Shown here one piece after another: positions 13,791 to 63,799 of a stretch of 64,000 nucleotides of DNA. Both the position numbers and the translations under genes were made by a program. Source of the DNA: Norana najaformis (lineage: Eukaryota; Annelida; Clitellata; Crassiclitellata; Hormogastridae); NCBI GenBank assembly GCA_964023275.1, contig OZ029922.1, positions 1,508,741-1,572,740 on the forward strand, read 5' to 3'. Under the pieces are notes generated by a model. It made no database searches. It was given only the letters and a program-made list of their open reading frames with translations, and was not told where the DNA came from. Each line of letters starts with the position of its first letter. Position 1 is the stretch's first letter.

Positions 13791-13944
13791 ACTTATCTGG
13801 CATCTTCTTTATCCGTCTGACAGTCAGAGGCGAAAATTTGTACATAACTTTGGGGGGACGGCGCGATAGCCCCGAAATATTTTGCATTATTTGTTCGAAA
13901 TGGGGGTACAGATGAGGGACAGTAAACATAAATGGGTAATGGGA

Positions 13945-14805
13945 CTACACAAACATTTATAATTCATCAATTGCATGCAGATAACAGTGTTACCGTCCTT
14001 CAGTATGCAGATGACACCCAGGCTTATGCCCATGGTCCGGTGAAGGCGGCCCCTGCCCTTGTCCAGAGGATTCTCGATGCCACCTTTGTCCTTGACCTAT
14101 GGGTGTCCTCCAATCGCATCCGTTTGAATTGTAATAAGACGCAGTTCATCTGGCTTGGTGGCCGCTTGCAGCTCGGGAAGATCACTCTCCTCCTTACGCC
14201 AGATATTTCCGGATATCTCCTTCTCTACTACGGTCCGGGATCTCGGGGTTGTACTGGATCAGGAGCTTACTCTGTCTGCCCATGTTGTTTTTACCATCTT
14301 CGTCAGCTCCGCACCATTCGCCGTACTCTTTCCTTTCACGCTATCTCCACTCTGGTCCATGCCCTCGTTTGCACTAGGGTTGACTTTGGGAACGCCATCT
14401 TTACCGGCCTATCGCTTGCCAACACTGCTAAGCTGCAATCTGTGCTTAACTCTGCTGCTCGTCTCAGGGGGTATTCCAAAATATGGCCACATCTCGTCTT
14501 ATATTCGTGACACTCTTCACTGGCTCCCCGTCAAGGACCGTGTCCACTTTGAGATCCTCTCCCTCATGGGCAGTTGTGTTCTTGGCTCTGCTCCCCTTTA
14601 CCTAATTCACTTCTGCACTTTGGTCTCCTCGTTGCCGGGCCGTAGTACCCTTCGAGAATTGCGACTTGAGCTCCTGTCTCTCCCCCTCTCAGTGTTCCGC
14701 AGGCGCCTGAAGACTGTACTGTTCATCAGTGATTTTACCTTTCCGGGTCGGAAACACCTCTGTTGAGTTTATCCTCTAAGAGGTGCTTTATAAATCTCAT
14801 TGCGC
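13945..14805 (+). pseudogene. Degenerate non-LTR retrotransposon, RT C-terminal half
   Basis: The catalytic box reads LQYADDTQAY near 14005 (the YADD motif of LINE reverse transcriptases), then WVSSNRIRLNCNKTQFIWLG (W...N-L-LN-KT signature). Homologous text then jumps frame: RDLGVVLDQELTLSAHV in another frame, VHALVCTRVDFGNAIFTGL back in the first, and RDTLHWLPVKDRVHFEIL in the second. At least three frameshifts separate these blocks, so the copy is dead. The 5' half is missing. The 3' end (GTTGAGTTTATCCTCTAAGA, GGTGCTTTATAAATCT) matches a second fragment at 48828-48885. The family looks like the CR1/Jockey group by motif, from memory. Confidence 0.85.
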
Positions 14806-18746: not shown

Positions 18747-18840
18747 ATGAACTTATTGTTCGTTGAGCTCGTTGTCGTCTTCTTCTTCCGAGGACTGATT
18801 TCCTCGCTCGGCCCGACTGGCGGCGTCACGGCTACTCACG
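18747..18840 (+). CDS. Exon 1: signal peptide
   Basis: ATG at 18747 is followed by a strongly hydrophobic run. The exon ends CTCACG|GTGAGC, a near-consensus donor, after one base of a codon (phase 1). An in-frame opening extends upstream to 18612 but has no other ATG. Confidence 0.7.
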
Positions 18841-21800
18841 GTGAGCCATGGCCATCGCTCGAAGACTCAGGGAGGCTGGCTTGAAGACAGGGTGGTGGAC
18901 CAGCAGGGATGAAGGGTGGCAGGAAGGTAGGCAGGGAGGTTGGTAGCATATTGGTTAGAGCACTCGGCTTGTAACGCGGTGAGTACGGGTTCGAGCTTCC
19001 TCCGAGATGGTTACTGCATAGGGATCTTTAGCAAGTCCTTAACTCACAATAACTCGGTGCCATCGATTGATGATAAGTCATTAAATAGTGGCGCCTAATA
19101 AATGCAGAAATAATAATAATAGACAGGATGTTGGCAAGCGTGGAAGCTGGCGATCCAGTGCCACTAAGTTACCCAGTCTGACTGAAGCAGAAGCAGAGAG
19201 GCAGAGGAAGACAGATAGCAAGAGACAGAGACGAGGACAGACAGACACAGTTTGTTCCAGCGTCATTGAATTACACATACAAGGACAAACAGACAGAGAG
19301 ACGGAATGACGTACAGAGAGATAGACGGACAAACAGATGAATCCGACCCACAGAGGAGGGTAGATATTGGGGCATTTTCTAGAAATGCGTTCAGACCGGA
19401 CGAAAGCGGGGTTGGTGGTGGGAGAGGCCTTTCCTTCTGAGCCATCCATTCAGCTCGACATAATGGCTAGGAAATTACTTCGCCTGAAATCGTTCGTTTC
19501 CCATCTGGACACGGGGATCGCACCTAAGCTGTACATCCCGTCGTTCATAGTCTGCAGAACGGGCAATATTGATGGCCTACGGGGGGCTTACGGCGCGTCT
19601 TCCTCTCCCCTTTCTTCGCAACCTTTCCTATAAAGCCCCGATTCATATCATCACGATATTGCGGCCTCTCTCTCACCCTCTCGCGTTCCCCGGTCTCGTT
19701 TTTCCCTCTTGGTTTTGTGTCTCTCTCTTTTCTCGTAAGATTCAGCAGTTGATGAGCATCCCCCCAGCATCCCCCTTCTCTGCACAGACGGAACAATCGC
19801 CGTGATTTTCATACAGGTGAATAGAAACGAAGGGACGAGTGAAGTGATTGGAATGAATGGATGGATGAGTGAATGGATGGATGGATGAGTGAATTGATTG
19901 ATGAACGGATGAATGAATTAGAGAGTGGGTGTATTAGAAGATGGGTGGGTGGATGGATGGATGGATGATAGCAATGATTGAATTAAGGATGAATTGATGA
20001 ATTGGTTACTGCGTAGGCGAATGTACTAGTAGGTTGGTGAGTGGATGGGTGAGTGAATGGATGGATGGATAGATGGATAGATGGATGGATGAGTGAATTG
20101 ATTGATGGGCCGATGAATGGATGAAATGATGGGTGGACGGACTGGTGGATGGACGGATGGAAGGATTACGGGAGGGTGGCTTGATGTGTGCAATAATTAT
20201 TATGGTTGGCTTGTTGGCTAGTTTGGATGGATGGATGGATGGCTGGATGGCTGGCTGGATGGGTGGATGGATGGATGGATGGATTAATAAATGAATGGAT
20301 GGGTCATTGGGTTGGTGGGAAGGTGAATGAGCAAACAGATGGATTGATGGACAGAAAAATGGTTGGTTGGAGCTAACTATCGTGAAATGGACGGAGGAAG
20401 GGCGGAAAGATTGGAATAGGGTGGGCAAATAAGAGGCTTTTGGAAATTTGTGAAAGGGTGATTGAAGGCGGATGACAAAGTGGGCGCCAGACCCACGATC
20501 CGTTTGATGGACGAACTATGGATGGATGGATGGAGGCAAGGATAAATGGATGAATGTATATATATGTGTGTGTGTGTGTTTGAGGATGGAGTGAGGAAAG
20601 GAGGAAGGTATAGGGTTTGCATCTGACCGTCTGAAAGGCGGCTCTTCTTACTTCAGCTGAATGCAGTGGTCGAATCTGAATAAACTCGAACGGACAGATA
20701 GGTAAAAGGCTTTGAGAGAGGCAGACAGGCAGGCAGTCAGTCAGTCAGACAGACAAAGAAAAACACAGATACAAAGACAGGGACATAGAAAGAGAGTCCA
20801 TCAATGTGGATGGCGTTCTCGTCTGTCCTTTCTCGTTCTTGCTCGCGTTCTTTTCTTGATTAGTCTTCATATCAGTGTTCTCGCTTTGTTCTGCTTTTTG
20901 TTCTTATTCTTGCTCTTCTTCTTATTCATTCTACATATTTCTTGTTCTCGTTGTACTTTTCTTTCTTCTTATTTTTTCTTGTTCTGTTGTTGTTCTTGAT
21001 ATTCAAATTGTTCTTCTTATTTTCTTCTTCTTCTAGTTTTTTCTTGATGTTGCTTTTCTTCTCCTTGTGAAAGTAATTTTTAATCCTCGGGTTCATATCA
21101 GCTTGATTTCTTTCTTTTCAGTCATTCAGGAGTTCCTTCTACCTGACTTCGGTACGTTCAACTTCTGAACATATAATCAAATTTCATGGACTTAGAGAAT
21201 TAATATCGGGAGATTATATATAGAGACCGCCTCATAGAACTACGACAGTTTTTAAACGAAGGCCTTAACGTGGATAGCTAGGCCTACAGTGTAATGAGGG
21301 GTGTAATAGCCCGAGGGTGATGCCAGAGAATGGGTTCTTTGTAACAGTTAATTTTTGGTTTTTCAAGTACAACTACAGAAGTTTTTTGGGTGATAAAACT
21401 GATTTTCTCGCAGAACTTTGGCATTCTTATATAATTAAAGCCTCAGCCCTTGAACCGTACATAGCAAAGGGGCAACGAAGATAATGCGATGGCGTGTGAC
21501 AAAGAATGGGATGATTGTAACAGCTTTGAGATGTTTTGGATTTTCTTGACGCTCTTCGATATTGGTAGAGATGAAGGTGCAATTCTTGGGCTGAAGGTCA
21601 GAGGTGGGCTTCTTTGACAGATCTCGTTTGGCGAAGTCCTTCGAGCGAGTTTCCGTACTTCGGAAATTCTATCACAAAACGATCGGACCACATGTCAAGC
21701 GACGCACGGCGAATCTACATCGACGTGAACTCGAGCCTGAAGCAAGGACTTCTGAAGAACTTCTACATCTTTGCCCACTCCATTCCAGGCGTGTTCGAAT

Positions 21801-24800
21801 CGTGGATTCGAATCCAGGTCTGGAGACCGACTGATCTCGAGGCGCGGGGGAAGAAGTACCAACTGGTCTGGGAACATCGGGTTCTCGTCGACATGGAGGC
21901 CTTTCCAGAGGGTGTCGTTCACCAGGTTTTATATTCATTTTCTGATCATTATTAATTAATATAATTGCTATAATTATTTGGTTATTTAATTGTTTTGAGT
22001 TTTCAACGTGTGCTTAAGAACGACACAGAGGAAATGGATTGGACACATACTGAGAGGTGATTCCCCTCTGAGAGATATCATAGGGGGAAGAATGGATGGG
22101 GAAAAGAGAAGGGAGATCTAGACAAATGCTGTTTGACTGGATGATGGTGAACGGTTAGGGCAAACTGAAGGAGGAGGCCCAACAACGTCAGCAATAGCGC
22201 CAGACTGTCTGTCAGAGCAAGCATTAGACTGCAAATCGTTGACTTAATTCTTCCTCATACAATTCCTAATCTTCTTCCTCCAACTCCTAACCCCCTTCTC
22301 CAACTCCTCCTCTTCCATATCCAACTTCTTTCCAGCTCCTCTCCTATACAGAGTATATACACCAACTCCTCCTATGCTTTATATTTCTTCGCCTCTTCTA
22401 TTTCCTACTCATTCTTTTTCCCTTTCTCCTCATTCTTTTTCCCTTTCTCCTCATTCTTTTTCCCTTTCTCCTCATTCTTTTTCCTTTTCTCCTCATTCTT
22501 TTTTCCTTTCTCCTCATTCTTTTTCCCTTTCTCCTCATTCTTTTTCCCTTTCTCCTCATTCTTTTTCCCTTTCTCCTCATTCTTTTTCCCTTTCTCCTCA
22601 TTCTTTTTCCTTTTCTCCTCATTCTTTTTCCCTTTCTCCTCATTCTTTTTCCCTTTCTCCTCATTCTTTTTCCCTTTCTCCTCATTCTTTTTCCCTTTCT
22701 CCTCATTCTTTTTCCCTTTCTCCTCATTCTTTTTCCCTTTCTCCTCATTCTTTTTCCCTTTCTCCTCATTCTTTTTCCCTTTCTCCTCATTCTTTTTCCT
22801 TTTCTCCTCATTCTTTTTCCCTTTCTCCTCATTCTTTTTCCCTTTCTCCTCATTCTTTTTCCTTTTCTCCTCATTCTTTTTCCCTTTCTCCTCATTCTTT
22901 TTCCCTTTCTCCTCATTCTTTTTCCTTTTCTCCTCATTCTTTTTCCCTTTCTCCTCATTCTTTTTCCTTTTCTCCTCATTCTTTTTCCCTTTCTCCTCAG
23001 TCTTTTTCCCTTTCTCCTCATTCTTTTTCCTTTTCTCCTCATTCTTTTTCCCTTTCTCCTCATTCTTTTTCCCTTTCTCCTCATTCTTTTTCCCTTTCTC
23101 CTCATTCTTTTTCCCTTTCTCCTCATTCTTTTTCCTTTTCTCCTCATTCTTTTTCCCTTTCTCCTCATTCTTTTTCCCTTTCTCCTCATTCTTTTTCCCT
23201 TTCTCCTCATTCTTTTTCCCTTTCTCCTCATTCTTTTTCCTTTTCTCCTCATTCTTTTTCCCTTTCTCCTCATTCTTTTTCCCTTTCCCCTCATTCTTTT
23301 TCCCTTTCTCCTCATTCTTTTTCCCTTTCTCCTCATTCTTTTTCCTTTTCTCCTCATTCTTTTTCCCTTTCTCCTCATTCTTTTTTCCTTTCTCCTCATT
23401 CTTTTTCTCTTTCTCCTCATTCTTTTTCCCTTTCTCCTCATTCTTTTTCCCTTTCTCCTCATTCTTTTTCCTTTTCTCCTCATTCTTTTTCCTTTTCTCC
23501 TCATTCTTTTTCCCTTTCTCCTCATTCTTTTTCCCTTTCTCCTCATTCTTTTTCCCTTTCTCCTCATTCTTTTTCCCTTTCTCCTCATTCTTTTTCCCTT
23601 TCTCCTCATTCTTTTTCCCTTTCTCCTCATTCTTTTTCCCTTTCTCCTCATTCTTTTTCCCTTTCTCCTCATTCTTTTTCCCTTTCTCCTCATTCTTTTT
23701 CCTTTTCTCCTCATTCTTTTTCCCTTTCTCCTCATTCTTTTTCCCTTTCTCCTCATTCTTTTTCCCTTTCTCCTCATTCTTTTTCCCTTTCTCCTCATTC
23801 TTTTTCCTTTTCTCCTCATTCTTTTTCCCTTTCTCCTCATTCTTTTTCCCTTTCTCCTCATTCTTTTTCCCTTTCTCCTCATTCTTTTCCCTTTCTCCTC
23901 ATTCTTTTTCCTTTTCTCCTCATTCTTTTTCCCTTTCTCCTCATTCTTTTTCCCTTTCTCCTCATTCTTTTTCCTTTTCTCCTCATTCTTTTTCCCTTTC
24001 TCCTCATTCTTTTTCCCTTTCTCCTCATTCTTTTTCCCTTTCTCCTCATTCTTTTTCCCTTTCTCCTCATTCTTTTTCCCTTTCTCCTCATTCTTTTTCC
24101 CTTTCTCCTCATTCTTTTTCCTTTCTCCTCATTCTTTTTCCCTTTCTCCTCATTCTTTTTCCCTTTCTCCTCATTCTTTTTCCTTTTCTCCTCATTCTTT
24201 TTCCTTTTCTCCTCATTCTTTTTCCCTTTCCCCTCATTCTTTTTCCTTTTCTCCTCATTCTTTTTCCCTTTCTCCTCATTCTTTTTCCTTTTCTCCTCAT
24301 TCTTTTTCCCTTTCTCCTCATTCTTTTTTCCTTTTCTCCTCATTCTTTTTCCCTTTCTTCTCATTCTTTTTCCCTTTCTCCTCATTCTTTTTCCCTTTCT
24401 CCTCATTCTTTTTCCCTTTCTCCTCATTCTTTTTCCTTTTCTCCTCATTCTTTTTCCCTTTCTCCTCATTCTTTTTCCCTTTCTCCTCATTCTTTTTCCT
24501 TTTCTCCTCATTCTTTTTCCCTTTCTCCTCATTCTTTTTCCCTTTCTCCTCATTCTTTTTCCCTTTCTCCTCATTCTTTTTCCTTTTCTCCTCATTCTTT
24601 TTCCCTTTCTCCTCATTCTTTTCCCTTTCTCCTCCATTTCCTACTCCAATTCATCCTTCTGCAAGCCCGACAAACATACACATGGCGTTTATATAACGTC
24701 TTAGTATGTATATATGTATATATACACGTATTGTATGTATACATACATGTGTATATATGCATGCACACATAAATACATACTCGCATACATCAGTACATAA

Positions 24801-27800
24801 TTACATACATACATAGTATATGCATGCATACATAAATAAATAAATACATACATACACATCTACAAATATACTTACGTACATACTTACGTACATACACATA
24901 TACATTCATACCAAGATTCATACATACATACGTAGATACATATATATATTGTAGTTCAGCGTGAATGCTTCCCACGTGCCAATTGAGACGGGCGACATGA
25001 TTGGCTGGACCTTCGAGGAGGAAACCGATGGCCCCATCGGGTTCGACCCCTTGCCTGGAGCAAAGACCCTCTACCGGACCCTGACGTCGAGGGACTTCCC
25101 GAGGCTCGGGCTCGTTTACGAATTCCAGGCTGAGCCACTGAACGCAGCCTTCTCAGTGGCCGTCGAGGTCTTCGAGTACGATGCCTGCTCCAGATGTGGT
25201 GATGGGACACTACCATTGGAACCACTGCGTACGATCAAGATCAGTCTCTGTAGCACATACCACCTCAAACACTGTCTCTCTTCTCTCCTTTCTCACTCTC
25301 CCCTCTCTCTCTCTTGCTCTCTCTCTCTCTCTGCTCTCCTCTCACTCCTCTCTATCTATCTATCTATCTATCTATTTCTCTCCTCTCTCCCTCTCCTCTC
25401 TTTCCCCTCTCTTTCTCTGTCTTGCTCTCTCTCTCTCTCCTCTCCTCTCTTCTCTTCCCTCCTGCCCTTCCTCCCTCTCTGAGTTTACATAATAGATAGA
25501 CCCACAGCGGCTTAAACCCCAATCTCTCAACTTATAAATAAACACGTATTACGCTCTACGAGCAAATGGGTGGATTACGATACACACCCGCACACACACA
25601 CAAGTATGTCCTTTTATGAGCGCGGAATATATTAGACTTCGTCTAACTACACGCATACATAAACATGTATATGTATGTTTATACATGAATATATGTAGTC
25701 CTTCTGACATATATATATATATGTTTATAGAGGAGTATATACATAATAGACAGTCCTTCTGGCAATGGTTGTCTAAGTCCGGATAAGATCTCAACGCGTC
25801 TTCGTCCTTTTAATTCGATACTTGGCTTCATTATTATTTATGACGTAATAACGGAACTGTCCGCGTGCATTATGACTTCCGGCGTACGCTTCACTTGGCG
25901 CTATATCATCAAACACCCAAGCAGCAGCAGCAACTATGCAAGGCCTCGGAAATAAATAGCATCTGCTGTACTCAGAATGCATATTTGTAGATATAGATGC
26001 GTAGTCATATATACGACCTATAGAAAGGTTTGCATGTACAAACATTTCATGTATACGTATATGTACGTTTGGGGATACATTTATATGGAAATATATATGA
26101 GTCTGTATACATGTATCTATGTTTATATAGATACTTGGTCATATATAAGTGTATATAGAGCGTGTATACCTATATAGATATTAGTATACAAGTATATTGA
26201 TAGTGTGAGTCTGTATAGGCCTACATGTTCGTATTCGAATATAGACACTTGGTCATATATAAGTGCATATAGGTCCTGCATATCTATATACACGAATAGA
26301 TATGAATATATATAGTTCCAAGCACTGGGGCATAAGGGGTGACTTGCAATTGTGCTCCTGGTTCGTTCCTATCTGTCTCATTGCGTAGCTTCGATGCCCA
26401 TGAGTTCAGCGGTGCATGCTTGCTGCTCAGATGGAATCCGCCCGAATATAAAATCGGCATTTCACGCTGCAACACCCCCATAGTCTTAATTCGCTCGGAA
26501 ACTCCCGTGACAGTCATTAGACTTTTCTCCATGGACAACGTTTAACGATCGCACTTTGAGATACTACGCCGATTTCTCTGCCATGTCAGGCACACGAGCA
26601 AATGCATAAGATCATCGCAAACACCGTTACACGTTCTATACTTAACCAAAGACGTCAACACAGGACCCAGTTTAACGTTTAAAACTATGCTAAGTTAACT
26701 AACGCAAATGCTAAAAACCGACACACACCGTCCCTGCCAGAAGTGGGACAAAGATGTTAGTCTAGACATGAATTCCATGAATGGCAAGCACCCCATCTTG
26801 TCCCCATGTATGAGCACTCATGCAAACATTGTAATTCGTTTAAATCTAATAATAAACCTGCTCCAGCGTAAGTATCAAAGTAAATCGCCCTAGTTAAGCA
26901 TAAAAATCTTTGCTAATTCATTTATAAGCTATCGCAAACTTCGTTACAACAAGACCTACTCAACCAAGAGCATAAAACGCCATAGGGTTTGAAAACTTCT
27001 CTACATAAATGCTTGAAATGAATGAATGGATAAATAAATGAATGAATTTAAAGTATTTAACCCTATTTTATCCTTCTTGCTCTACTAGCTGTTAGTGACT
27101 CGACCAACTAACTGCTATAGAAAGCCCTAACCAGTTTTAGAAGGCACAATAATGACTTACTAGTTTCTCCGACTTATCAGATTTAGACCTGGCATCTCCA
27201 ATGGATTAGAGCTTTGACTACAAATTCCCTTGAATCGCCCATCGATTGATGCTTTTAGGAATAACGAATAACGGCGCTAAAGAAGTCATTGGATTAGATT
27301 AGATTTTAATGCATCTTCAAGATATGAGCAAGTCTTATTAGATTACAAAGCCTAATCTTAACGTGGATGTCTGGGTTCCATTATGAGACTGAATACATTT
27401 TAATGGTCTTTGGTTAGTGATAAATAATTTCTGTGCATTTCACTAATTATGTTCAGATGAAGACGAGAGTTTACCCGGGGATTTTGCAGGAGAAGCTTCA
27501 AAAGACTCGAATCTTGCCAAGTTGAAAGAAGCCGAATCGTGTTAGTTACAGGCTATTATATCGTATGCTATTACACTGTAAATATATATTGCATTCCAAT
27601 GTATTTGCCAATTTATATAACGCCTCTTTGAGAAAAACTAATCATGGGCGTCCCGACATGACAGCCAGGAGAAAACATGTGAGTTTAAGGCAGAGTTGTA
27701 GCAATCCTTCCTCTCACAGCCACCTGTTCAAAGGGGCAGCAGCGGTGAAGGATCTCACCCGATAAATTCATAGAAAACTGAGCAAGGTCGAGGCCATACG

Positions 27801-30314
27801 GTCGTTGTAAAAATTATTGCTCAAATAATGACTCTACCTACTCGGTAGGTGTCTGTAGACGCACGTGGTCTACCTTTCTCTCTGTGTTTGGGTTACTCTA
27901 AGCGTACGTGCTAATATATGCTTGCATACTCGTGTGCTTGTAAAATAGATTTGCTCAGGTGTTGGCTTGTAACTGAATCTTCATTACGCCTTTGAACCTA
28001 TTAATAACTTTGCTGGATTCAAACGCAACATAATCAACTACAGACGCAGAACCTGCCCCAACAATCCCGTCATAAAAATTAATCATAGTAATCGCAAATA
28101 TGTGGCACGGTAGCTGATTGGTTAGAGCGCTCGGCCTGTAACGCGTAGAGTAAGGGTTCGATCCTTCCCCTTGGTGGTGTACAGGGTTCTTGAGCAAGTC
28201 CTTCACGCACAACTGTTCAGCGCTATAGCTGCTCTGTCGCATGGTCGTGTATGCACTGCTGAACTTTGGAAAGAGGGCAATATAAAATACAGTTGTGTTG
28301 TAAATATACTGTCAACTATTAAAGACCACGCTTCTGTAATGTAATGTATGGTAGGCCTGACTAAAAAGGAAAAGTAGAAATTTTCACGCGTTATGTCTTC
28401 TATAAACGCAGAACGTGACAAAACATCTAAACGAATAAAAGGCCGAAATATCGATGCAGGTAGCGCCACATATGGAGTGAATTGGTAACGGGCGGGAACT
28501 GTCAACAAAACATAGCATGATCTAAAAATATCACACAACGTAACATATAATTACATAATATTACATAACATAACAAAACCTAACCTAACATAACTTGGGT
28601 TTAAGAGGTCCAGATGTTATGTTGTGTTATGCTGACAGACCTCGGCCGGTAACAATTCATTCAATCCAGCCATGCAGGGCCTCTATTGGTCCGTGTTCTG
28701 GGAGTCTGCGAGAGACTGACATAGGAAGTCTTCTCCAGCTACATAGGCATCATTTGGCTGGAGAAGAACTTGTTCTTTAGAACTGGAATATCAAGAAAAG
28801 AATCCACAGAAGAAGAAAAGATCAGTCTCCTTTATGATAACCCCGACAGACACCCACTGTAAGTGTAATTGCAATCAGAAATTTATATAGCGCCGCTTCA
28901 GAGAAACTAATCAGAGAAGCTCTCTACCTCTACGATGCTACATGTCATTAAGAACAGACAGTTCATCAGTTAGCAAGCGATGTTCAAATGACTAGAAAGT
29001 CACCAGCGGTGGTCTCCCTCACACACGCAGAGCCCAACGAAAGGATGGACACGAAGTGTTAACGACTTCGCTTCCTTAGCCTCGGCGTACGAGGACGGGT
29101 GGCCGGAGGGGACTGAGTACGCTGATAGTGTACGATCAGCGTACTCAGTTTACACCTGAGCTCGCTAGGGGCGCAAGTGAAGCAGATAACTCGAAACTTA
29201 TTTCTGCCCTGGTGGGGATTTGAACATCTGAACTCTCGGTAGAAAGTTCAGCCGCTAACCATCTAATCATTAGACTATCGCGCAAATAACTAATTAACTA
29301 ATTAAATGCACAGTAATGCTTATGACGTCATGCATATCAGACGAATCAACATTATCATAATCATCAATCATTACCGTTATCATCACTAATTAACTAACTA
29401 AATAGACATTTATGCTTATGACGTCATGCATATCAGACGCATCAACATTATCATAATCATCATCATTACCGTTATCATCACTAATTAACTAACTAAATAG
29501 ACATTTATGCTTATGACGTCATGCATATCAGACGCATCAACATTATCATAATCATCATCATTACCGTTATCATCACTAATTAACTAACTAAATAGACATT
29601 TATGCTTATGACGTCATGCATATCAGACGCATCAACATTATCATAATCATCATCATTACCGTTATCATCACTAATTAACTAACTAAATAGACATTTATGC
29701 TTATGACGTCATGCATATCAGACGCATCAACATTATCATAATCATCATCATTACCGTTATCATCACTATTACCACTACAGATCTGTTGCATGCACTGGTA
29801 TGGTATGTTCGTGGTATTGTCCGTTGCTACAGCGGGGCATCGTACGGGAAACGACGTTAGTGTTATAGTCGGTCCCGTGCTGGGAATTGTCGTTCTCGCC
29901 CTAGGTGTCGCCAACATCGCTCTCTACGTCAGTCATCGCCAAATACAGAACAAGTAAGTATGATCATACAGTACAATAAAATACGATACGATACAATACA
30001 ATACAATGCAATACAATACAATGTAAAGTGAATTTTAGTACACTAAAAAGAGAATTGATGAAACTGCCATCGTTCGTTACTGTGCCATTTACGATCAGTT
30101 TCCTTTCACCGATTGGAAAATGTATGCTTGTGTACATGTATCAAAGTACTTATATAGCGCATCTTAACAAATTCACGAGGGTGCTGAATAATTCACCGTC
30201 AGAGTGTTTTTGACGACAGACTGTCATTTGAATTCTATGGAATGGATTTGATTTTGTTACAGGAACAACAGGAGCCAACGGAATAGCACCAGGTCAGCGA
30301 ATTCCTCTTTGTAA
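18747..30314 (+). CDS. Five-exon gene for a 271-residue type I membrane protein
   Basis: Coding exons are 18747-18840, 21621-21925, 24955-25198, 29833-29953 and 30263-30314. The 816 nt give 271 residues plus TAA. Exon-end phases (1, 0, 1, 2) agree at all four joints, and every intron is GT-AG. Residues 1-22 are a hydrophobic signal peptide ([16 protein letters not shown]). Residues 32-208 are an extracellular domain rich in beta pattern, with RIQVWRP at 95-101, YQLVWEHRV at 111-119 and [10 protein letters not shown] at 142-151. There are N-glycosylation sequons at N68 and N137, and only two cysteines (211, 214) before the membrane. Helix 223-247 ([18 protein letters not shown]) precedes a basic tail of 24 residues ending SSL. 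From memory, QVWRP...IPVxxGDxIGW occurs in unnamed extracellular domains of many marine invertebrates; I know no function. A surface receptor or adhesion role is inference. An extra skipped exon or another 3' end is possible. Confidence 0.72.
18945..19122 (+). mobile_element. tRNA-headed SINE (type C), near full length, in intron 1
   Basis: The order is GGTTAGAGCACTCGGCTTG (box A region), GGGTTCGAGC (box B), GGATCTTTAGCAAGTCC, GGTGCCATCGATTGATGA, AGTGGCGCCTAATAAATG, and a short (AAT) end. It gives the reading order for the other type C copies. Confidence 0.8.
19190..19350. repeat. Purine-rich (AGACAGAG) tract
   Basis: AGACAGAGACGAGGACAGAC-like low complexity inside intron 1. Bases 19360-19840 are unique-looking, with no exon I can support. 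Confidence 0.65.
19845..20310. repeat. (GGAT)n microsatellite, degenerate
   Basis: GATGGATGGATG units with many variants across about 460 bases of intron 1. A further GGAT run is at 20515-20535 and (GT)n at 20565-20580. Confidence 0.9.
20715..21065. repeat. (CAGT/CAGA) run, then T-rich TTCTTCTTGTTC tract
   Basis: CAGGCAGTCAGTCAGTCAGAC is followed by 200 bases of TTCTT/TTGTTC low complexity in intron 1. Bases 21070-21620 are unique-looking without a supported exon. Confidence 0.75.
21621..21925 (+). CDS. Exon 2: first half of the extracellular domain
   Basis: Acceptor GGGCTTCTTTGACAG|ATCTCG. The frame is fixed by the phase 1 donor of exon 1 (G + AT = Asp). It is open for 102 codons and ends GTTCACCAG|GTTTTA on a codon boundary. 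It contains [24 protein letters not shown] and [14 protein letters not shown]. Codon use is GC-rich at third positions, unlike the AT-rich intron around it. Confidence 0.75.
22395..24640. repeat. 2.25-kb satellite of a 21-bp pyrimidine unit, in intron 2
   Basis: About 107 copies of a 21-base unit beginning CATTCTTTTTCC and ending TTTCTCCT. Most variation is C/T at one position (CCCTTT or CCTTTT); a few units are 20 or 22 bases (near 23885, 24120, 24325 and 24618). The plus strand is almost purely pyrimidine apart from one A per unit. Because 21 is divisible by three, reading frames stay open for up to 776 codons (PHSFSLS heptads on plus, RMRRKGK on minus). These are artefacts: the array lies between two phase-matched exons. 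Diverged pyrimidine sequence precedes it from 22250. Confidence 0.95.
24690..24950. repeat. (ACAT/GTAT) microsatellite before exon 3
   Basis: A TTTATATAACGTC repeat tail at 24690 leads into TATGTATATA and then ACATACATAC units that run to within a few bases of the exon 3 acceptor. Confidence 0.85.
24955..25198 (+). CDS. Exon 3: second half of the extracellular domain
   Basis: Acceptor ATATATATTGTAG|TTCAGC, phase 0, continuing exon 2 as [20 protein letters not shown]. It stays open through [18 protein letters not shown] and [16 protein letters not shown]. Donor AGATGTG|GTGATG leaves one base (phase 1), as exon 4 needs. This donor is the weakest of the four splice calls. Confidence 0.68.
25260..25482. 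repeat. (CT)n-rich tract with a (CTAT) run
   Basis: CTCTCTCTCT and CTATCTATCTATC just after exon 3. Pyrimidine low complexity, intronic. Confidence 0.9.
25600..26320. repeat. AT-rich (ATAT/GTAT) intronic sequence
   Basis: Repeated ACACTTGGTCATATATAAGTG copies (26130-26150 and 26250-26270) and long AT dinucleotide stretches. No exon supported. Confidence 0.6.
26320..27140. other. Intronic; no exon confirmed
   Basis: The 68-codon plus frame at 26339-26545 (ends [12 protein letters not shown]) lacks a good acceptor/donor pair and its phase was not testable. I leave it out of the gene model. Confidence 0.4.
27145..27360 (+). mobile_element. SINE-like repeat (type B), plus strand
   Basis: TCGCCCATCGATTGATGC, TAACGGCGCTAAAGAAGTCA, then TTGGATTAGATTAGATTTT. 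The GATTA repeats at the tail are the usual end of this type. Confidence 0.65.
27590..27815 (+). mobile_element. SINE-like repeat (type A) in intron 3
   Basis: Left edge AATTTATATAACGCC; core AGCAGCGGTGAAGGATCTCA, CCCGATAAATTCATAG, GGTCGAGGCCATACGGTCG. The core is the plus-strand form of the sequence inverted at 5398, 43345, 44486 and 58455. Confidence 0.7.
28095..28265 (+). mobile_element. tRNA-headed SINE (type C)
   Basis: GATTGGTTAGAGCGCTCGG (box A), GGGTTCGATCC (box B), GTTCTTGAGCAAGTCC, TTCAGCGC. It lacks the far tail. Bases 28270-28860 hold only a (CATAAC) tract at 28540-28600. Confidence 0.75.
28868..29290 (-). mobile_element. tRNA-headed SINE-like composite, minus strand
   Basis: The left edge is AATTTATATAGCGCCGC; the right edge read on minus is GCGCGATAGTCTAATGATTA followed by a B-box-like GTTCAAATCCC. 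A perfect 15-bp hairpin (29112-29149) lies inside. Confidence 0.6.
29112..29149. other. Perfect 15-bp hairpin, 8-nt loop
   Basis: ACTGAGTACGCTGAT, loop AGTGTACG, then the exact complement ATCAGCGTACTCAGT. Confidence 0.8.
29285..29768. repeat. 95-bp tandem repeat, about five copies, each with TGACGTCA
   Basis: Units start every 95 bases (TGCTTATGACGTCATGCATA at 29318, 29413, 29508, 29603, 29698). Copies 2-5 look identical; the first differs slightly. The CRE palindrome TGACGTCA falls at 29324, 29419, 29514, 29609 and 29704, each followed by TGCATAT. The array ends 65 bases before exon 4. Confidence 0.92.
29833..29953 (+). CDS. Exon 4: transmembrane segment
   Basis: Acceptor CCGTTGCTACAG|CGGGGC; the phase 1 base from exon 3 completes GCG (Ala). 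It encodes [20 protein letters not shown] then [15 protein letters not shown], an uninterrupted 25-residue hydrophobic helix followed by basic residues. Donor AACAA|GTAAGTA is close to consensus and phase 2. Confidence 0.75.
30263..30314 (+). CDS. Exon 5: short cytoplasmic tail and stop
   Basis: Acceptor TTTGATTTTGTTACAG|GAACAAC; AA + G gives Lys. It reads [16 protein letters not shown] then TAA at 30312-30314. The last three residues (SSL) fit a class I PDZ-ligand pattern, a weak hint. An internal CCAG|GTCAGC at 30292 could serve as a donor, giving a 30-nt microexon and a longer tail. Confidence 0.65.
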
Positions 30315-32771: not shown

Positions 32772-32777
32772 TTTATT
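32772..32777 (-). promoter_or_regulatory. AATAAA overlapping the GPCR stop codon
   Basis: The minus strand reads ATC TAA TAA AC, so the hexamer shares bases with the TAA stop. If used, the 3' UTR would be only some tens of bases. Confidence 0.4.
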
Positions 32778-35328
32778 AGATGCTCGTTTCGAGCATAATC
32801 ACCCGATTATTAGCGTCACGTGGCGACAACTGAACCCTCGACATTGATCCCCCTTTTCCAGCGACGCCTCGAAGTCTGTTACTCGACGAATGCCCCGTCC
32901 CCTCGGAGAACCGCCGCACTCGTCCTTTGCTGCAGAACAGGCGCCACACCTTCCGCGTGCAGACGAACGCCGCGCAGAAGAACAAACCCTGAAGCGCGTT
33001 GAAGAGTACGAAGAGGTTCCAGAGGAAGGTCCAATGACTGGCCACGGCCACGACGGCCAGCAGCCATGCCACTCCCATCAGAATGGACAGCTGCATGGAG
33101 ACGATGATTCGATGCTTGTACTTGTTCCGGTGATGCTGGAAGCGCGCCGGAAGCGTTTCGAAGCAGAGCTTACATGCGGCTATCACGTACAGGATGAGGT
33201 TGACAGCCAGCAGGAGGCAGATGGGAAGGGTGAAGAGCATCAGCTGGCTGAGACCCATCGCCCAACAACCCCCCGAGCGCGGCTCGTACGGGTGCCATCC
33301 GTCAATGCGCAGTACTGCCGTGGCCACTGAGCCGGCTACGACGATGAAAGGTACGGACCAGGCGTAGAGGGAGTACCAGACGAAACGGGTGCAGCATTCC
33401 TCTGCGATGTACGAGTAGGTCGAAGAGGACGGCTCAGAGGACTTGAGCCACCGGAAGACGTCGATGGAGACGACGTTGAGCCAGCAGAAGGCGGCCAGGA
33501 AGCAGTACTGCATCGCCTGCGACACGACGAAGCAGACGGTCGATCCGGGGAAGTCGTCCCAGACAAGGATGACGAACAGGTAGAGGAGCTGGGCGAAGAA
33601 GAGCGACGCGGCAAGGCACAGCACGCATTTGCCGTCAGTGTTGGTCCAGAGGCTAGTGAACATCGCATAGACGAGAAGATGGATGAAGAGAGCGACGAGG
33701 CAGATGATGGCGCCGACCAGCGACAGAGACCGCTGCGACGTCTCAAACTGGAACATCGTGAAGTTGTACCGCGGCGATAGAAACGTGACGTCGACGCCGG
33801 TAACGTCATCGTCGGTGACGTCACGCCCCTGTCGAAAGCACACCGACGGACTTCCGCTCTGCCAGACCACGTGACCAGCGGCGAAGACGCGCCGAAGGGA
33901 AATGACGTAGACAGAACCATTTTCGTAGAGCCTGTAGTCAGTTCGGTTGACCATAAGCAGCGGGCAGTGGCTCGTGGTCACGTGCGCCAATGACGCGGTT
34001 GAAGCAATTTCCGTCGTCACTTCCGACGCATCGACGAAGTAATCGTCTTCGTCATAATCGTCCTCGGTGCTCAACCGGATGCCGTTGTTTCCGACCGGAT
34101 CCACTTCCGGCGGCGACCGCGTTTCCGGTTTCGACAGCGGAACGCAGTTTCCTGCGCGCAGAACCGACCCCTGGCGGCAGAAGAGCAGACGACACTCATC
34201 AGTGAAGGGATCATACAGTTTTCCGTCTGGGCAATCGGGAAACTGGACGGTTGAGCGACTGACGCTGCCGAATCTCCTCTCGTTGTCTTCCTCCGCCGAA
34301 ATTAGTGCCTGTCGCCCGTTGAAGTCGAGCTCGGCTACGTATGGGACGTATTCCTCAAGCACAATCCTGTAGTTCCCATCCGCGTCGACAGGAGGCGACG
34401 ACCGACTGTCTTCACACCGGATGTACGTCTCGTTCACGTAATTGCACACGGCGCATGCGCGGTTCCTAAAGGCGCGATTCCCGGCGTACACATAGTCGGT
34501 TCTTTCGCGGCACATCCGGGCAACTGTCTTATTCTGCCAGCTACGATCACACCGGCCAATGTTCACCTTGCAGGCGCGGGGTCCCGGAAGTGAAAGAGAC
34601 TCGCGACTCGGGAGAACAGTGCTCGTACATCCGGCCTTTGCGAGACTGCGGAACATAGGACCCGATGAGTCCAGGACTCCAGTAGTTGGAGCCCCGCTAC
34701 AGCGAAGAAGGACACGCCAGAAGACAATGGGTTGATCGCCGGCACAGATAGCACAGTAAGCATTGCGATAGAGCAGGTGCAGCGGCGGTCCACCGCGTAC
34801 AGGGATGCGGTAGAAGCGGTCTTCATGGCTGACTGACGACGCGGTTGCGGAGGCTGGCTTCTCGCATCGTTCCCTCACATAGGCGTCGTCGTAGTCTGGG
34901 TGGCAGCGCGTGACGACGTAAACCTCCGACGTGGACCGGCCCGATTCGGAGTCTGGCATTCGCTGGCAGGTGACGACCGAACGAGGAATGTGGTAGGACA
35001 GGGTCAAGGTCGAGGAATTCAAGGACCTGAAGTCGACGCAGCAGTCGTCGTAGACGGCACACAGGTCGTCGCAGAAGCAGTTTCGCACGAACGTCGGCTG
35101 CTGAGGATGGAGAGGAGGATGCGGAGTAGAAGATGATGCTAACTCCGGTGTTTCGTCGCACTTGCTGCGTTGCTCACAGGAAATCGAAGTCGGCGGAGGA
35201 ATCTGTAGACTTCTGGGGGTCGGCGTCGATACCGACTGCGCATGCGCGATACATGTACCGGAAATGAGTAGAAGCAGCGCTCCTATGAGCCTCTGGCCAA
35301 TCGACCTCATCTCAGGATCACGTGTCAC
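32776..35328 (-). CDS. Somatomedin B / Methuselah-like seven-helix receptor
   Basis: 850 residues in one exon. Met1 and Met7 are both possible; Met7 gives the better signal peptide (MRSIGQRLIGALLLLISGTC). A somatomedin B domain spans about 49-121, with the hallmark NCFCDDLCAVYDDCCVDF at 83-100. Two YRNAYCAIC / FRNRACAVC motifs (187-195, 287-295) mark the cysteine-rich stalk known from invertebrate Methuselah-like receptors. An acidic linker EDDYDEDDYF is at 422-431. Helices lie at about 536-557, 567-589, 597-622, 649-672, 692-719, 739-763 and 767-792, with C599 (TM3) and C688 (loop 2) placed for the conserved disulfide. The cytoplasmic tail is 58 residues, basic and serine-rich. No GPS cleavage motif was seen. 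This is secretin-superfamily architecture; ligand and G protein are unknown. It converges with the type I membrane protein gene. The lack of introns over such a long ORF is notable. Confidence 0.96.
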   Translation of the reverse strand: MTRDPEMRSIGQRLIGALLLLISGTCIAHAQSVSTPTPRSLQIPPPTSISCEQRSKCDETPELASSSTPHPPLHPQQPTFVRNCFCDDLCAVYDDCCVDFRSLNSSTLTLSYHIPRSVVTCQRMPDSESGRSTSEVYVVTRCHPDYDDAYVRERCEKPASATASSVSHEDRFYRIPVRGGPPLHLLYRNAYCAICAGDQPIVFWRVLLRCSGAPTTGVLDSSGPMFRSLAKAGCTSTVLPSRESLSLPGPRACKVNIGRCDRSWQNKTVARMCRERTDYVYAGNRAFRNRACAVCNYVNETYIRCEDSRSSPPVDADGNYRIVLEEYVPYVAELDFNGRQALISAEEDNERRFGSVSRSTVQFPDCPDGKLYDPFTDECRLLFCRQGSVLRAGNCVPLSKPETRSPPEVDPVGNNGIRLSTEDDYDEDDYFVDASEVTTEIASTASLAHVTTSHCPLLMVNRTDYRLYENGSVYVISLRRVFAAGHVVWQSGSPSVCFRQGRDVTDDDVTGVDVTFLSPRYNFTMFQFETSQRSLSLVGAIICLVALFIHLLVYAMFTSLWTNTDGKCVLCLAASLFFAQLLYLFVILVWDDFPGSTVCFVVSQAMQYCFLAAFCWLNVVSIDVFRWLKSSEPSSSTYSYIAEECCTRFVWYSLYAWSVPFIVVAGSVATAVLRIDGWHPYEPRSGGCWAMGLSQLMLFTLPICLLLAVNLILYVIAACKLCFETLPARFQHHRNKYKHRIIVSMQLSILMGVAWLLAVVAVASHWTFLWNLFVLFNALQGLFFCAAFVCTRKVWRLFCSKGRVRRFSEGTGHSSSNRLRGVAGKGGSMSRVQLSPRDANNRVIMLETSI

Positions 35329-35334
35329 CCTAAA

Positions 35335-36000
35335 CCCACCCTCAGAATAACCTCTAAACCTTAACTACCCCCAAAAGTAACCCTAGAGTAAGCCCTAAAC
35401 TTTATCCTCCACGGTAAACCCCTTTCATCTAAAGTCAAGTCATCTCAACCCAAAAACCTAGAAGCCGAATGTTAGTATTTGCAGGGCTCGGTTGTACATG
35501 CTAACACCGGAATACACTCAAACTGTCAACGATTCGAGCGGACTTGAAGCCCGGTGTCGGTAAATATCTCAACGCCTTGTCACAGTTCAATGTATTCCTA
35601 CGCATCCCAACGTGTCACAGTTTAACGTATCCCTACGCCTTCCCATGCGATCATTATACGATCCTGTATAATCCAAACGGATGCCGTTACCATTAAGCAT
35701 AAAGAGGGTCACTTCAGGTGAACTCGTAGTCGAAATCGTAAACCGATGGAAAAGTCCGGTAGAAATCTTCCACGATTCTGATTAAATCCATTTTTATATC
35801 TTCTTCTGATTAATTCTGGGCTGTTCGGTTATAATGCGCTCTTAATCAAATCTTGGACTTATATAGCGCCACTACAACAATCCATGGAGCACCAAACTAG
35901 ATAGCTGTATATCGTAATAGCGTGACCCAATCTAATAACGAAAATTCAAGAGTCTACTGTGATTCGTCAAGATCTGATAATGATACTTGAAGATCAATTT
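35335..36000. other. Upstream of GPCR; no clear promoter
   Basis: Bases 35329-35415 have several CCCTAAAC/AACCCTA-like words. GGACTTATATAGCGCCACT at 35857 is a repeat tail. No TATA or CRE site that I trust. Confidence 0.4.
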
Positions 36001-43164: not shown

Positions 43165-45592
43165 TCTCCATCCTCTCCTTCCTTCTTCCCCTTCTCCTCA
43201 TCCTCTCTGACTCCTATTCCTCCTCTTATTCCTCCTCCTCTTCATTCATTTTCTTCTCCTCTCCATCCTCCTCTGCTTCTTCCTCCTTGTTGTCATCATC
43301 CTCTTCCTCACTCTCTCTCTCTCTCTCTTTCTATCTCTGTTTAGCGACCGTTACGCCTCGACCCTGCTCATTTGTCAGTGAACTGATCGGGTGAGATCCT
43401 TCACCACCGTTGCCCGTTTGAATGGGCGCCACTTCATTCAAGGTTCCCGAGTACGTATAGTGCTAAATGTCACAATCAACATTTCGAGATATCGGTGGAG
43501 ATTGCGAAATCTCTTCGTCAACTAGCTACACGATTTTTACCATATATCGTTACTAGAACATACCACTAAATAACATTAGAACATAGAACAGTCATGCAGC
43601 GCCCCTGTCGAGCCTTTGCGACAACAGAACTGATTACCAGAGTCAAATGCAGGCGACACCAACGTCATAGATCCCAACCGCTTTGTCTCCGTGAGCAATC
43701 TCACATCAGTGACGCGACCGCTGCAATATTTTCATCAGAACCGTGTCGTTTATTGCAGAAATCCTTAACGACAGAATAATAGGTGCCAGAGCACACAGTC
43801 CGTGATATCTGCGGCACTATTGCAAGTCGAGCTCTCGCCGTTCGTTAGTCAGCGGCATTCATACGATACCCGGCCTTGATAAAGGTCTATGGGCCCTCCA
43901 GCTGTGCGCCAATATAAAGTTACTGCTTATTTGTGTGTGTGTGCGTGCGTGCGTGTGTGTGTGTGTGTGTGTGTGTGCTGAGAGCGAGGCCTGAATTACG
44001 CTAGGCACTGGCTTATATCTTGCAAAACCGAACAGCATCTTCTGACGCCGACTTTCCAGCTGCTGCAACTTCTCGTTCCCATGTTCCTCTTCCTCTTCCT
44101 CGACTTCCTCACAATATTCATTCAAGTCTTCATCATCTAATTCCTCTTCCGCTTTCTCATCCTCTTCCTCCTCTTAATTTGTTCTCATCTTCCTTCTCTT
44201 CCTTCTCCTCCTTTCTTCTACCTCCTCTGTTCTTCCTCCCCTTCTCGTTCTAACTTCTCTTAATCCTCTCCTTCCTCCACTTCATTCAATTCCTTATCAT
44301 TCTCCTCTCCATCCTCTCATTCCTTCTTCCCCTTCTCCTCATCCTCTCTGACTCCTATTCCTCCTCTTATTCCTCCTCCTCTTTATTCACTTCTTTCTCC
44401 TCTCCATCCTCCTCTGCTTCTTCCTCCTTGTTGTCATCATCCTCTTCCTCACTCTCTCTCTCTCTCTCTTTCTATCTCTGTTTAGCGACCGTTACGCCTC
44501 GACCCTGCTCATTTGTCAGTGAACTGATCGGGTGAGATCCTTCACCACCGTTGCCCGTTTGAATGGGCGCCACTTCATTCAAGGTTCCCGAGTACGTATA
44601 GTGCTAAATGTCACAATCAACATTTCGAGATATCGGTGGAGATTGCGAAATCTCTTCGTCAACTAGCTACACGATTTTTACCATATATCGTTACTAGAAC
44701 ATACCACTAAATAACATTAGAACATAGAACAGTCATGCAGCGCCCCTGTCGAGCCTTTGCGACAACAGAACTGATTACCAGAGTCAAATGCAGGCGACAC
44801 CAACGTCATAGATCCCAACCGCTTTGTCTCCGTGAGCAATCTCACATCAGTGACGCGACCGCTGCAATATTTTCATCAGAACCGTGTCGTTTATTGCAGA
44901 AATCCTTAACGACAGAATAATAGGTGCCAGAGCACACAGTCCGTGATATCTGCGGCACTATTGCAAGTCGAGCTCTCGCCGTTCGTTAGTCAGCGGCATT
45001 CATACGATACCCGGCCTTGATAAAGGTCTATGGGCCCTCCAGCTGTGCGCCAATATAAAGTTACTGCTTATTTGTGTGTGTGTGCGTGCGTGCGTGTGTG
45101 TGTGTGTGTGTGTGTGTGCTGAGAGCGAGGCCTGAATTACGCTAGGCACTGGCTTATATCTTGCAAAACCGAACAGCATCTTCTGACGCCGACTTTCCAG
45201 CTGCTGCAACTTCTCGTTCCCATGTTCCTCTTCCTCTTCCTCGACTTCCTCACAATATTCATTCAAGTCTTCATCATCTAATTCCTCTTCCGCTTTCTCA
45301 TCCTCTTCCTCCTCTTAATTTGTTCTCATCTTCCTTCTCTTCCTTCTCCTCCTTTCTTCTACCTCCTCTGTTCTTCCTCCCCTTCTCGTTCTAACTTCTC
45401 TTAATCCTCTCCTTCCTCCACTTCATTCAATTCCTTATCATTCTCCTCTCCATCCTCTCATTCCTTCTTCCCCTTCTCCTCATCCTCTCTGACTCCTATT
45501 CCTCCTCTTATTCCTCCTCCTCTTTATTCACTTCTTTCTCCTCTCCATCCTCCTCTGCTTCTTCCTCCTTGTTGTCATCATCCTCTTCCTCC
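43165..45592. repeat. 1,141-bp tandem duplication, two copies plus a partial third
   Basis: Every landmark after 43330 recurs exactly 1,141 bases later (GTTTAGCGACCG near 43340 and 44481; CATGCAGCGCCCCTGTCGAG near 43593 and 44734; the GTGCGTGCGTGCGTG run near 43940 and 45081). A third partial copy runs from about 45445 to 45592. The left edge of copy 1 (43165-43260) differs at several bases from the other two. Each full copy holds an inverted type A SINE core, a (GT)n run and CTTCCTC tracts. The paired ORFs in it show no domain. Confidence 0.93.
43342..43430 (-). mobile_element. SINE-like core (type A) in duplication copy 1
   Basis: GACCGTTACGCCTCGACCCT, GATCGGGTGAGATCCTTCAC, CACCGTTGCCCGTTTGAATG. 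An identical copy is at 44483-44571. Confidence 0.7.
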
Positions 45593-62695: not shown

Positions 62696-62950
62696 CGGAA
62701 TAAAACGATAATTATCTCTTTAAAATGAATGATTGCTTTTACTCTTTTGAGCTAGTATATTGACATCTACTTTGTCTTAAACTGTTTCAGCGGCATGCAC
62801 TTGAATGTGATTATTTATTAATCCGGCCCAATCAATTTCGGATTCTGAAACAGACCTCGATTGTTACTCGATATTTACGTCAAATCTAAGATAAATCGAC
62901 AGCAAGATTTACGCCGGAAAGCAATTTAAATCAACTCGGCAGCAGCCAAT

Positions 62951-63799
62951 ATGTTCTTCAACTCTTTCAGTTCTTCAATCAAGGCGCTAATTTTTCTTTG
63001 GATGGTCGGCTTTCTGGTAGAGTTTGGTTTTTCTGAAACTTCTGAAACTTCGACACCTCCCGGACCATGCAGATACGATGCAGCCATTGTTTGCAAACAC
63101 ATAGGAACGCCAGAAGAACACATGAATGCTTTAACCAGCGCTTTTAGTGGAAACCATGAAATCGATCTGATATTCATCATCTGTAACACGTCGGACTGCA
63201 GTGCAGCATATTCTAATGTGAGTAGATTCTTAGTCAAACTAGTTTCTCTGATCTCGACTAAATACGAATCCTATATTGACGAAAATCGGGTGCATATCTC
63301 AATGATCGTCTACGACGATTCATCAGTTCGAGTGACTTTGAACGACATCCAGGAAAAGAAACCCACAGTAGGAAACTGCGAGTTCGAAAAGCGGCTTCCT
63401 AATTTGGTTTCTAAAGCTGAAAAGGAGGATAATGCGGTCTGCTGGTTACCAGATAGCCTGAAGGAAGCCAGCGCAATCTTTGCTCAGTCCATTAGACCGA
63501 ATGCCAAAAAAATACTTTGGTTGTTTTCGAACTGCGGCGGTGTTACTGACTCATTAAGCAATTGGAAGCAAGACGCTGAAACTGCCATTGACAACATTAA
63601 AAAAGGATATGGGAAGGACATCGAGATATTTACTGCAGGTATTTCTCAGTGTCCCAAGGGATGGTTTTACAAATTGTCACAAGAAGATCTGATGAAGGAG
63701 ATGGCGTCGTCAAATTCCAGTCACTATGCATGCATTGGCTCGTGGTACGACTTTACCCAGATGAAATTCAACCCAGGTATCAGTCTCATTCGGCATTAA
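62951..63799 (+). CDS. Secreted vWA-like protein with degenerate metal site
   Basis: 282 residues from ATG at 62951. Residues 10-28 are a signal peptide (KALIFLWMVGFLVEFGFSE). A von Willebrand factor A fold covers about 71-255: strand 1 IDLIFIIC (71-78), strand HISMIVYDDSSVRVTL (115-130, the family's vvxFsdxxxvxxxL), SLKEASAIF (169-177), KKILWLFSNCGGVTD (186-200) and DIEIFTAGIS (223-232), then EDLMKEMAS. The MIDAS loop expected as DxSxS reads CNTSD; the TDG turn reads SNC; the central Thr loop reads CWLPDS. Divalent-metal binding is therefore unlikely, while the fold looks kept. Many cysteines and N-linked sequons fit secretion. A possible donor CCCAG|GTATCA at 63775 would end the exon after FNP; without it the frame ends after six more residues. 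Ligand unknown. More domains could lie beyond the window. Confidence 0.85.
   Translation: MFFNSFSSSIKALIFLWMVGFLVEFGFSETSETSTPPGPCRYDAAIVCKHIGTPEEHMNALTSAFSGNHEIDLIFIICNTSDCSAAYSNVSRFLVKLVSLISTKYESYIDENRVHISMIVYDDSSVRVTLNDIQEKKPTVGNCEFEKRLPNLVSKAEKEDNAVCWLPDSLKEASAIFAQSIRPNAKKILWLFSNCGGVTDSLSNWKQDAETAIDNIKKGYGKDIEIFTAGISQCPKGWFYKLSQEDLMKEMASSNSSHYACIGSWYDFTQMKFNPGISLIRH

Follow-up and report, generated by a model that had tools for sequence, protein, structure and literature searches.

A predicted collagen-less membrane protein carries the head domain of giant threonine-rich collagens in the annelid Norana najaformis

Annelid cuticle collagens, as described from Riftia, alvinellids and earthworm, are giant, threonine-rich molecules, and to our knowledge the tethering and laying down of these micrometre-long chains is unsettled at the gene level. 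Their size can be extreme, with Alvinella collagens of up to 8,859 aa (PMC12403961). Membrane-anchored collagens are represented by the MACITs (types XIII, XXIII and XXV), which are type II proteins with an N-terminal cytosolic part (PMC4678570). In the genome of N. najaformis, we analyzed a 64-kb window (the whole stretch of DNA under study) containing a small gene that encodes a predicted single-pass membrane protein. By sequence comparison, the gene is a collagen-less member of a family in which the same two-exon head domain precedes giant collagens.

The corrected gene model has six exons on the + strand with intron phases 1,1,0,1,2 and a product of 281 aa (Table 1). The layout is that of a predicted type I single-pass protein, with a signal peptide, a short linker exon, a head of about 165 residues, a CxxC motif, a membrane helix and a basic tail. 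A sequence-only reading had proposed five exons encoding 271 residues. When this version was rebuilt (816 bases, 271 aa, phases 1,0,1,2, no inner stop), its exon positions, order, phases and in-frame joints were confirmed, but the 30-base exon at 21122-21151 had been missed, and adding it corrected the length of the product. The same reading had called the gene complete, small and single-pass, with which the exons, the phases and the homologous loci agree. The membrane segment has a mean hydropathy of 2.62 over 19 residues and contains a GxxxG motif, and the tail bears a net charge of +5, counted from YVSHRQ to the end. The C-terminus is SSL, which has the form of a putative class I PDZ ligand (S/T-x-hydrophobic). 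Two introns are filled by repeats, namely a 21-bp array with about 106 copies and a repeat of 95 bp. Scanning the window gave no Rfam match and no tRNA.

Table 1. Predicted exons of the window gene and sequence motifs of the first head half
Feature	Position	Strand	Content and phase
Exon 1	18747..18840	+	Signal peptide with its start codon; phase 1 out at donor G|gtgagc
Exon 2	21122..21151	+	30-base phase 1-1 microexon; peptide including IQEFLLPDF
Exon 3	21621..21925	+	Head domain, first half; phase 1 in, 0 out
Exon 3 motifs, in order			FGNSI...RIQVWRP...YQLVWEHRV
Exon 4	24955..25198	+	Head domain, second half (...FSVAVEV), and juxtamembrane DACSRC; phase 0 in, 1 out
Exon 5	29833..29953	+	Transmembrane segment; phase 1 in, 2 out
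Exon 6	30263..30314	+	Short basic tail and stop

Splice sites were scored with a local splice matrix. The donor of exon 1 scores 1.7, where the 5% point of the training donors is 1.0, and the least sure site of the model is the donor of exon 4 (G|gtgatg, 2.5). The acceptor and donor of exon 2 score 10.7 and 4.4, respectively, and the acceptor of exon 6 scores 12.2. No other candidate in the first intron comes within 1 bit of exon 2, and control DNA yielded one candidate as strong in 103,480 bases. We also compared the codon use of each exon with that of stop-free stretches of equal length, using a GPCR open reading frame in the window as the reference. None of 5,983 stretches reaches the codon score of exon 4; the corresponding counts are 87 of 3,686 for exon 3, 565 of 29,398 for the signal exon and 1,420 of 21,839 for the membrane exon. 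For the tail exon, 19,859 of 54,449 stretches do as well, which is uninformative. The signal and tail exons, placed by splice signals and phases, are best described as putative. While the intrinsic evidence alone is only moderate, homologous loci elsewhere in the genome are decisive, and we judge the predicted gene to be genuine. A chance assembly of the exons was rejected since head loci with equal intron phases recur in the genome.

The two-exon head domain was found in the window and at six further loci of the host genome, five of which are complete. Both halves are present in the window, C1, C10:12.72M, C11, C14 and C4; at C10:25.88M only the second half was found, and the preceding stretch reads N. 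Homologues of exon 3 were detected at four other loci in the host-genome search (E 9e-8 to 3e-6). A search for paralogues with the same exon phases, suggested by the sequence-only reading, was successful in that the family loci have the head phases in common: entry 1, inner intron 0 and exit 1. The splice matrix gives weak sites at the C1 entry acceptor (0.2) and the C4 exit donor (-5.1). At the position of exon 2, 27-base phase 1-1 exons are present in C11 (LPPEYVLP), C10b (LPPDSVEP) and C1 (TPPESVNE); the window microexon agrees with them in position, phase and size, and its peptide is only loosely like theirs. The short-exon candidates of C14 and C4 are unlike these three peptides. A similar candidate signal exon with a phase 1 exit lies 5.2 kb before the domain in C14, where a second candidate is also present. 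The window head is 23-32% identical to the other heads. The four heads that precede collagen share 30 identical columns, of which the window head keeps 26 and the C4 head 20, and such retention of core columns at about 30% overall identity argues for function.

In four paralogues (C1, C10b, C14 and C11), the head precedes giant Gly-X-Thr collagens. The first 30 kb analyzed at each locus hold 836, 759, 1,024 and 850 triplets, respectively, of which 304, 344, 461 and 375 have Thr in the Y position, and Thr is the commonest Y residue of these Gly-X-Y regions. Longer DNA raised the counts to at least 1,732 triplets in C14 and at least 1,740 in C10b. One C1 exon matches PF01391 with 198 bits, and collagen exons mostly enter and exit in phase 1. 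The gene end was read in C14 only and in part in C10b, the ends of C1 and C11 not being reached. In C14, EGF-like exons (two of four over a Pfam cut-off) are followed by a membrane segment and a tail. For the tail of the C10:25.88M gene, no second copy was found. Based on composition, size and taxon only, the giant genes resemble annelid cuticle collagens. The annelid marker PF16915 (erythrocruorin linker) has 29 matches in the host genome (best 8.1e-32) and was found in none of 14 control genomes. The sequence-only reading had suggested that the window protein, with its single domain, could be a new surface receptor or adhesion type. A stand-alone role of this kind is not supported, since the domain also heads the giant Thr-rich transmembrane collagens encoded elsewhere in this genome.

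The window gene lacks any collagen. No GXY run of six or more was found on either strand of the window, nor on the gene strand over 9 kb at C4. We also considered whether collagen or EGF exons might be hidden in the interval 25199-29832 and rejected this, the longest + strand frames being simple-sequence or non-cysteine-rich. C4 has the order of the window gene, that is, head, CxxC and membrane segment, and the CxxC extension of exon 4 is common to both. The membrane exon of C4 enters in phase 1 and is followed by a possible phase 2 donor, or else by an in-frame stop. It matches the window membrane exon modestly, scoring 45 where shuffled sequences average 28.3, and 6 of 1000 shuffles did as well. 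In the window gene, C4 and C14, the C-terminal membrane helix has a phase 1 entry (hydropathy 2.5-2.7). Given the order seen in C4, the membrane exon can be assigned to the window gene, as had been supposed; its origin from another gene is ruled out by that order and by the lack of a GXY run in the window. Considering that the head exit and the membrane-exon entry are both in phase 1, a collagen-EGF block could drop in one step with the frame kept. The tree of the six heads has bootstraps of 46-60, so that collagen may have been lost separately by the window gene and C4, or may never have been present.

The head was also compared with known domains. Neither Pfam nor NCBIfam has a match to the window protein, and PDB searches gave no credible hit with the single sequence (E 0.64 and 1) or with profiles, where antibody variable domains reached E 0.018-0.019 and others exceeded 0.1; the antibody matches may reflect only beta strands. 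The domain is thus absent from the libraries searched; the sequence-only reading had likened parts of the ectodomain to unnamed domains of marine invertebrate proteins that have no assigned function. For the possible beta-sandwich fold raised by that reading, AlphaFold2 models of exons 3 and 4, each alone, gave strands but low mean pLDDT of 52 and 43, respectively. PF06848 (Disaggr_repeat) weakly matched exon-A pieces of two of five copies (best 6.4e-4). Against joined heads it matched C1 only, with 18.3 bits and a curated cut-off of 33.9, and did not match the window head or the joined C10b, C14 and C11 heads. No relative turned up in a search of viral contigs. In the literature searched, with most subscription journals outside it, no such head domain and no type I membrane collagens are described for annelids.

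The head may be a protein-binding or chain-association domain. Our preferred reading, with middling confidence, is that the window gene, a six-exon paralogue of the giant collagens, sets their head on the membrane as a partner with which collagen heads dock or assemble. The small protein would lie at the epidermal surface with its head displayed close to the membrane, where it would bind the heads of giant collagens or co-assemble with them, and the deposition of cuticle collagen would be docked, nucleated or limited by it. The CxxC and GxxxG motifs could keep the small protein as a dimer or trimer. If the gene were a decaying remnant of a giant collagen gene and made no working protein, this would account for the absent collagen and EGF exons and for the two repeat-filled introns. 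However, the six exons are open and in phase, 26 core columns are kept, exon 4 shows coding bias and C4 has the same layout, which makes such decay highly improbable.

It is possible, though we think it rather unlikely, that the protein is an independent surface receptor or adhesion protein that borrowed the head for an unrelated ligand (a matrix sugar, a symbiont or another cell) and signals through a PDZ partner of its tail. The single-pass layout with its C-terminal SSL and the divergence of the head are consistent with this, and the match of the C1 head to PF06848, although below the cut-off, hints weakly at a surface beta domain. However, the window copy itself lacks that match, the core of the collagen heads is largely kept and there is no sign of a separate ligand. 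A negative regulator or decoy, which would occupy head partners and cap collagen assembly or retain chains in the secretory pathway, has the same head with no helix to propagate, and phase 1 modularity would let truncated forms evolve easily; yet two such genes (window and C4) are equally explicable as positive docking factors, and we consider a decoy improbable. Extending the docking reading, we tentatively propose that the giant Thr-rich collagens of annelids have type I transmembrane topology and an undescribed head, that at least two collagen-less genes of this genome place this head on the membrane and that, with the collagen-EGF block droppable in one step, a micrometre-long matrix molecule may have become a factor for its own docking or assembly at the membrane. 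If true, the head domain, the membrane giants and the small partner would be candidates for the molecules that dock and nucleate an extracellular fibre and control its length, and the locus would show clearly how phase-1 exon modularity can lead from a matrix giant to a small surface protein.

The likeness to PF06848 is weak, is seen among the joined heads in that of C1 only, stays below the cut-off and leaves the window head unmatched. The long Thr-rich Gly-X-Y regions of the paralogues are like those of annelid cuticle collagens, in contrast with the window gene, which has no collagen. C14 and C10:25.88M are, by sequence, membrane-anchored collagens as the MACITs are. Unlike MACITs, however, the family described here has its predicted signal peptide and head at the N-terminus and its membrane helix at the C-terminus, and its small member in the window presents this arrangement without collagen.

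The five-exon plus-strand gene proposed in the sequence-only reading was rebuilt to the base, giving 816 bases, 271 residues and intron phases of 1, 0, 1 and 2. By codon use, only exon 4, which encodes the second half of the extracellular two-exon domain that we call the head, was outstanding; exon 3, encoding the first half, was suggestive, and the membrane and tail exons were within the background. The window protein matched no family in Pfam or NCBIfam, and its best match in the PDB had an E value of 0.64. Taken alone, the evidence within the window for the five-exon gene is moderate.

Features of the window, with scores from a splice matrix built on collagen exons (training set, 55 acceptors and 64 donors)
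Feature	Position	Strand	Acceptor	Donor	Stop-free windows with codon use as good
Signal exon		+		1.7	
Microexon	21122-21151	+	10.7	4.4	
Exon 3 (head)	21621-21925	+	5.6	8.2	87/3,686
Exon 4 (head)	24955-25198	+	3.8	2.5	0/5,983
Exon 5 (membrane)		+	4.4	7.7	1,420/21,839
Exon 6 (tail)		+	12.2		19,859/54,449
Reverse transcriptase stretch	13932-14766				
SINE-like stretches	~18940-19080, ~28100-28300				
21-bp tandem array	22408-24634				
95-bp repeat	29289-29768				
GPCR frame	32776-35364	-			
Identical frames	43859-44173, 45000-45314	-			
289-residue open frame	62930-63799	+			

Relatives of the head were searched for in the 17-contig assembly (608,420,607 bases), in which the window sits on contig C10. 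The first half found relatives on contigs C1, C11 and C14 and at C10:12.72M (E 9e-8 to 3e-6), and the second half found C10:25.88M (E 2.4e-4), C10:12.72M (E 0.008) and C14 (E 0.29). Within the fetched regions, tblastn located the first half followed by the second at C1, C10:12.72M, C11 and C14. The C11 head gave an additional weak match on C4 (E 0.049), which was then found to carry both halves. At least seven head loci are thus present, a lower bound because the genome search scores the best candidates only. Paralogues whose exon phases can be read as matching, which the sequence-only reading had proposed looking for, were recovered: at each locus the sequence allows phase 1 for entry into the first head exon and for exit from the second, and phase 0 for the inner intron, whose position in the alignment is shared. 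The majority of these splice sites score well on a matrix that is biased to CAG, the ending of collagen exons; the weak ones are the C1 entry acceptor (0.2) and the C4 donors (-2.8 and -5.1).

In four of these loci the head is followed by the many Gly-X-Y exons of a giant collagen. Within the first 30 kb fetched, we counted 836 (C1), 759 (C10:12.72M), 1,024 (C14) and 850 (C11) Gly-X-Y triplets, with Thr as the commonest Y residue (304, 344, 461 and 375, respectively) and Pro in Y ranging from 110/836 to 75/1,024; the C1 and C11 genes were read to a point short of their ends. One C1 exon matched PF01391 with 198 bits. The offsets of phase 1-1 exons were occupied by 58 of 91 acceptor and 44 of 68 donor candidates, the remainder including spurious AG/GT inside exons. 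Exon sizes recur among the four Thr-rich genes (C10:12.71-12.76M, C14, C1 and C11), as do triplet counts per collagen exon from gene to gene. With 40 kb more, the C14 count rose to at least 1,732, of which 791 have Thr in Y; for C10:12.72M, more DNA gave at least 1,740 triplets, 835 of them with Thr in Y. The C14 collagen is followed by four cysteine-rich exons, two of them above a Pfam EGF-type cut-off, then by a membrane segment and finally a cytoplasmic tail whose last residues are TDDYEA. By eye, the exon after the C10:12.72M collagen resembles the first of these, with no EGF match in Pfam. The C10:25.88M locus joins the second half of the head to one short exon of collagen-like sequence; three further exons are EGF-like, one of them above a cut-off, and the tail that goes with its membrane exon is longer. 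The four giant Thr-rich collagen genes are possibly of greater interest than the window gene itself.

The C4 gene carried no Gly-X-Y run of six or more on its strand in the 9 kb seen. Its head is followed by DGCVLC and, ~2.3 kb further on, by an exon with phase 1 entry encoding MQGSLSCDAVAGIIGGILGITAIALIILGVMQYQRIQEEMKK; the window counterpart, DACSRC, likewise lies ahead of the membrane exon. Both genes share D-x-C-x-x-C, seven linker residues leading up to the next D, and a membrane helix with GxxxG, and their membrane exons align with a score of 45 (shuffle mean 28.3; 6/1000 shuffles as good). The C4 helix is followed by an in-frame stop or else by a donor (score 7.0) in phase 2, the phase of the window intron between membrane and tail exons. 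The sequence-only reading was to be refuted by homologues that place the membrane exon in another gene. Considering that head, CxxC and membrane exon keep the same order at C4, the membrane exon, judged by this shared order, belongs to the window gene.

The 271-residue model had all five exons exact but left out a 30-base phase 1-1 microexon in intron 1. No other candidate in that intron reaches its combined splice score, and a single one as strong occurs among 103,480 control bases of the window. Upstream of the paralogous heads, at a total score of at least 11, short-exon candidates numbered 1 in C14, 8 in C11, 3 in C10:12.72M, 13 in C1 and 1 in C4. The 27-base exons LPPEYVLP (C11), LPPDSVEP (C10:12.72M) and TPPESVNE (C1) are, by their peptides, plainly one and the same exon; the window peptide IQEFLLPDF bears a loose likeness to them, and the candidates of C14 (30 bases) and C4 (36 bases) bear none. 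Given the microexon and the short exons in the paralogues, the window protein is most likely 281 residues long.

The window gene belongs to the collagen family yet has no collagen of its own. At 28-32% identity to the four collagen-bearing heads, its head keeps 26 of the 30 columns identical in all of them; C4, at 23-28% identity, keeps 20 of 30. Core columns kept at such low identity speak against decay. A tree of the six heads branched without resolution (bootstraps 46-60), so that the collagen-less form of the window and C4 genes may have had one origin or two. As read from sequence, the window protein has a secreted-side head near the membrane, a CxxC, a GxxxG helix and a short basic tail, and in the large relatives a very long helix is anchored at one end and carries the head at the other. 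The heads may associate with one another or with a common partner. The small window protein would then offer a head-association site at the cell surface, and might thereby dock, nucleate or limit collagen. That its head instead binds an unrelated ligand seems to us rather unlikely, and that the protein acts as a decoy more improbable still. In a literature search of incomplete coverage, we came across no description of the head domain or of annelid type I membrane collagens.

Several other features lie in the window. The 21-bp array (~106 copies, 97% match), in the intron separating the two head exons, leaves several reading frames open over long stretches, and the 95-bp unit (five copies, 98% match) ends 64 bases 5' of the membrane exon. 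An intronless GPCR frame, its 3' end toward the small gene, exceeded the 7tm_2 cut-off (62.5 bits) and has a somatomedin-B-like Cys region just under its own (20.9 against 23.1). The two identical 104-residue frames, 1,141 bases apart, are a recent local duplication. A broken LINE-like reverse transcriptase stretch matched RVT_1 weakly (16.9 bits, under cut-off). Two similar stretches with TTAGAGC.CTCGGC.TGTAACGCG look, by eye, like a tRNA-derived SINE, and ARAGORN found no tRNA there. The 289-residue frame looks like a secreted protein, with no Pfam match at E 0.1.

The erythrocruorin-linker family PF16915, not known outside annelids, has 29 matches in this genome, the best with an E value of 8.1e-32, and registers in none of 14 control genomes. 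On this marker we regard the genome as that of an annelid; 13 of the 29 fall within 36.71M-36.88M of contig C5, in a dense cluster of linker-like frames at 36.7-36.9M. By Thr content, length and taxon, the giant collagen genes are best called putative cuticle-type collagens. In the Alvinella genome paper (PMC12403961), alvinellid collagens extend to 8,859 aa, and the five longest have Pro fractions of 0.33-0.40 in X and 0.22-0.33 in Y. The Pro fractions given there for the long alvinellid collagens are higher than those of the giant collagen genes here.
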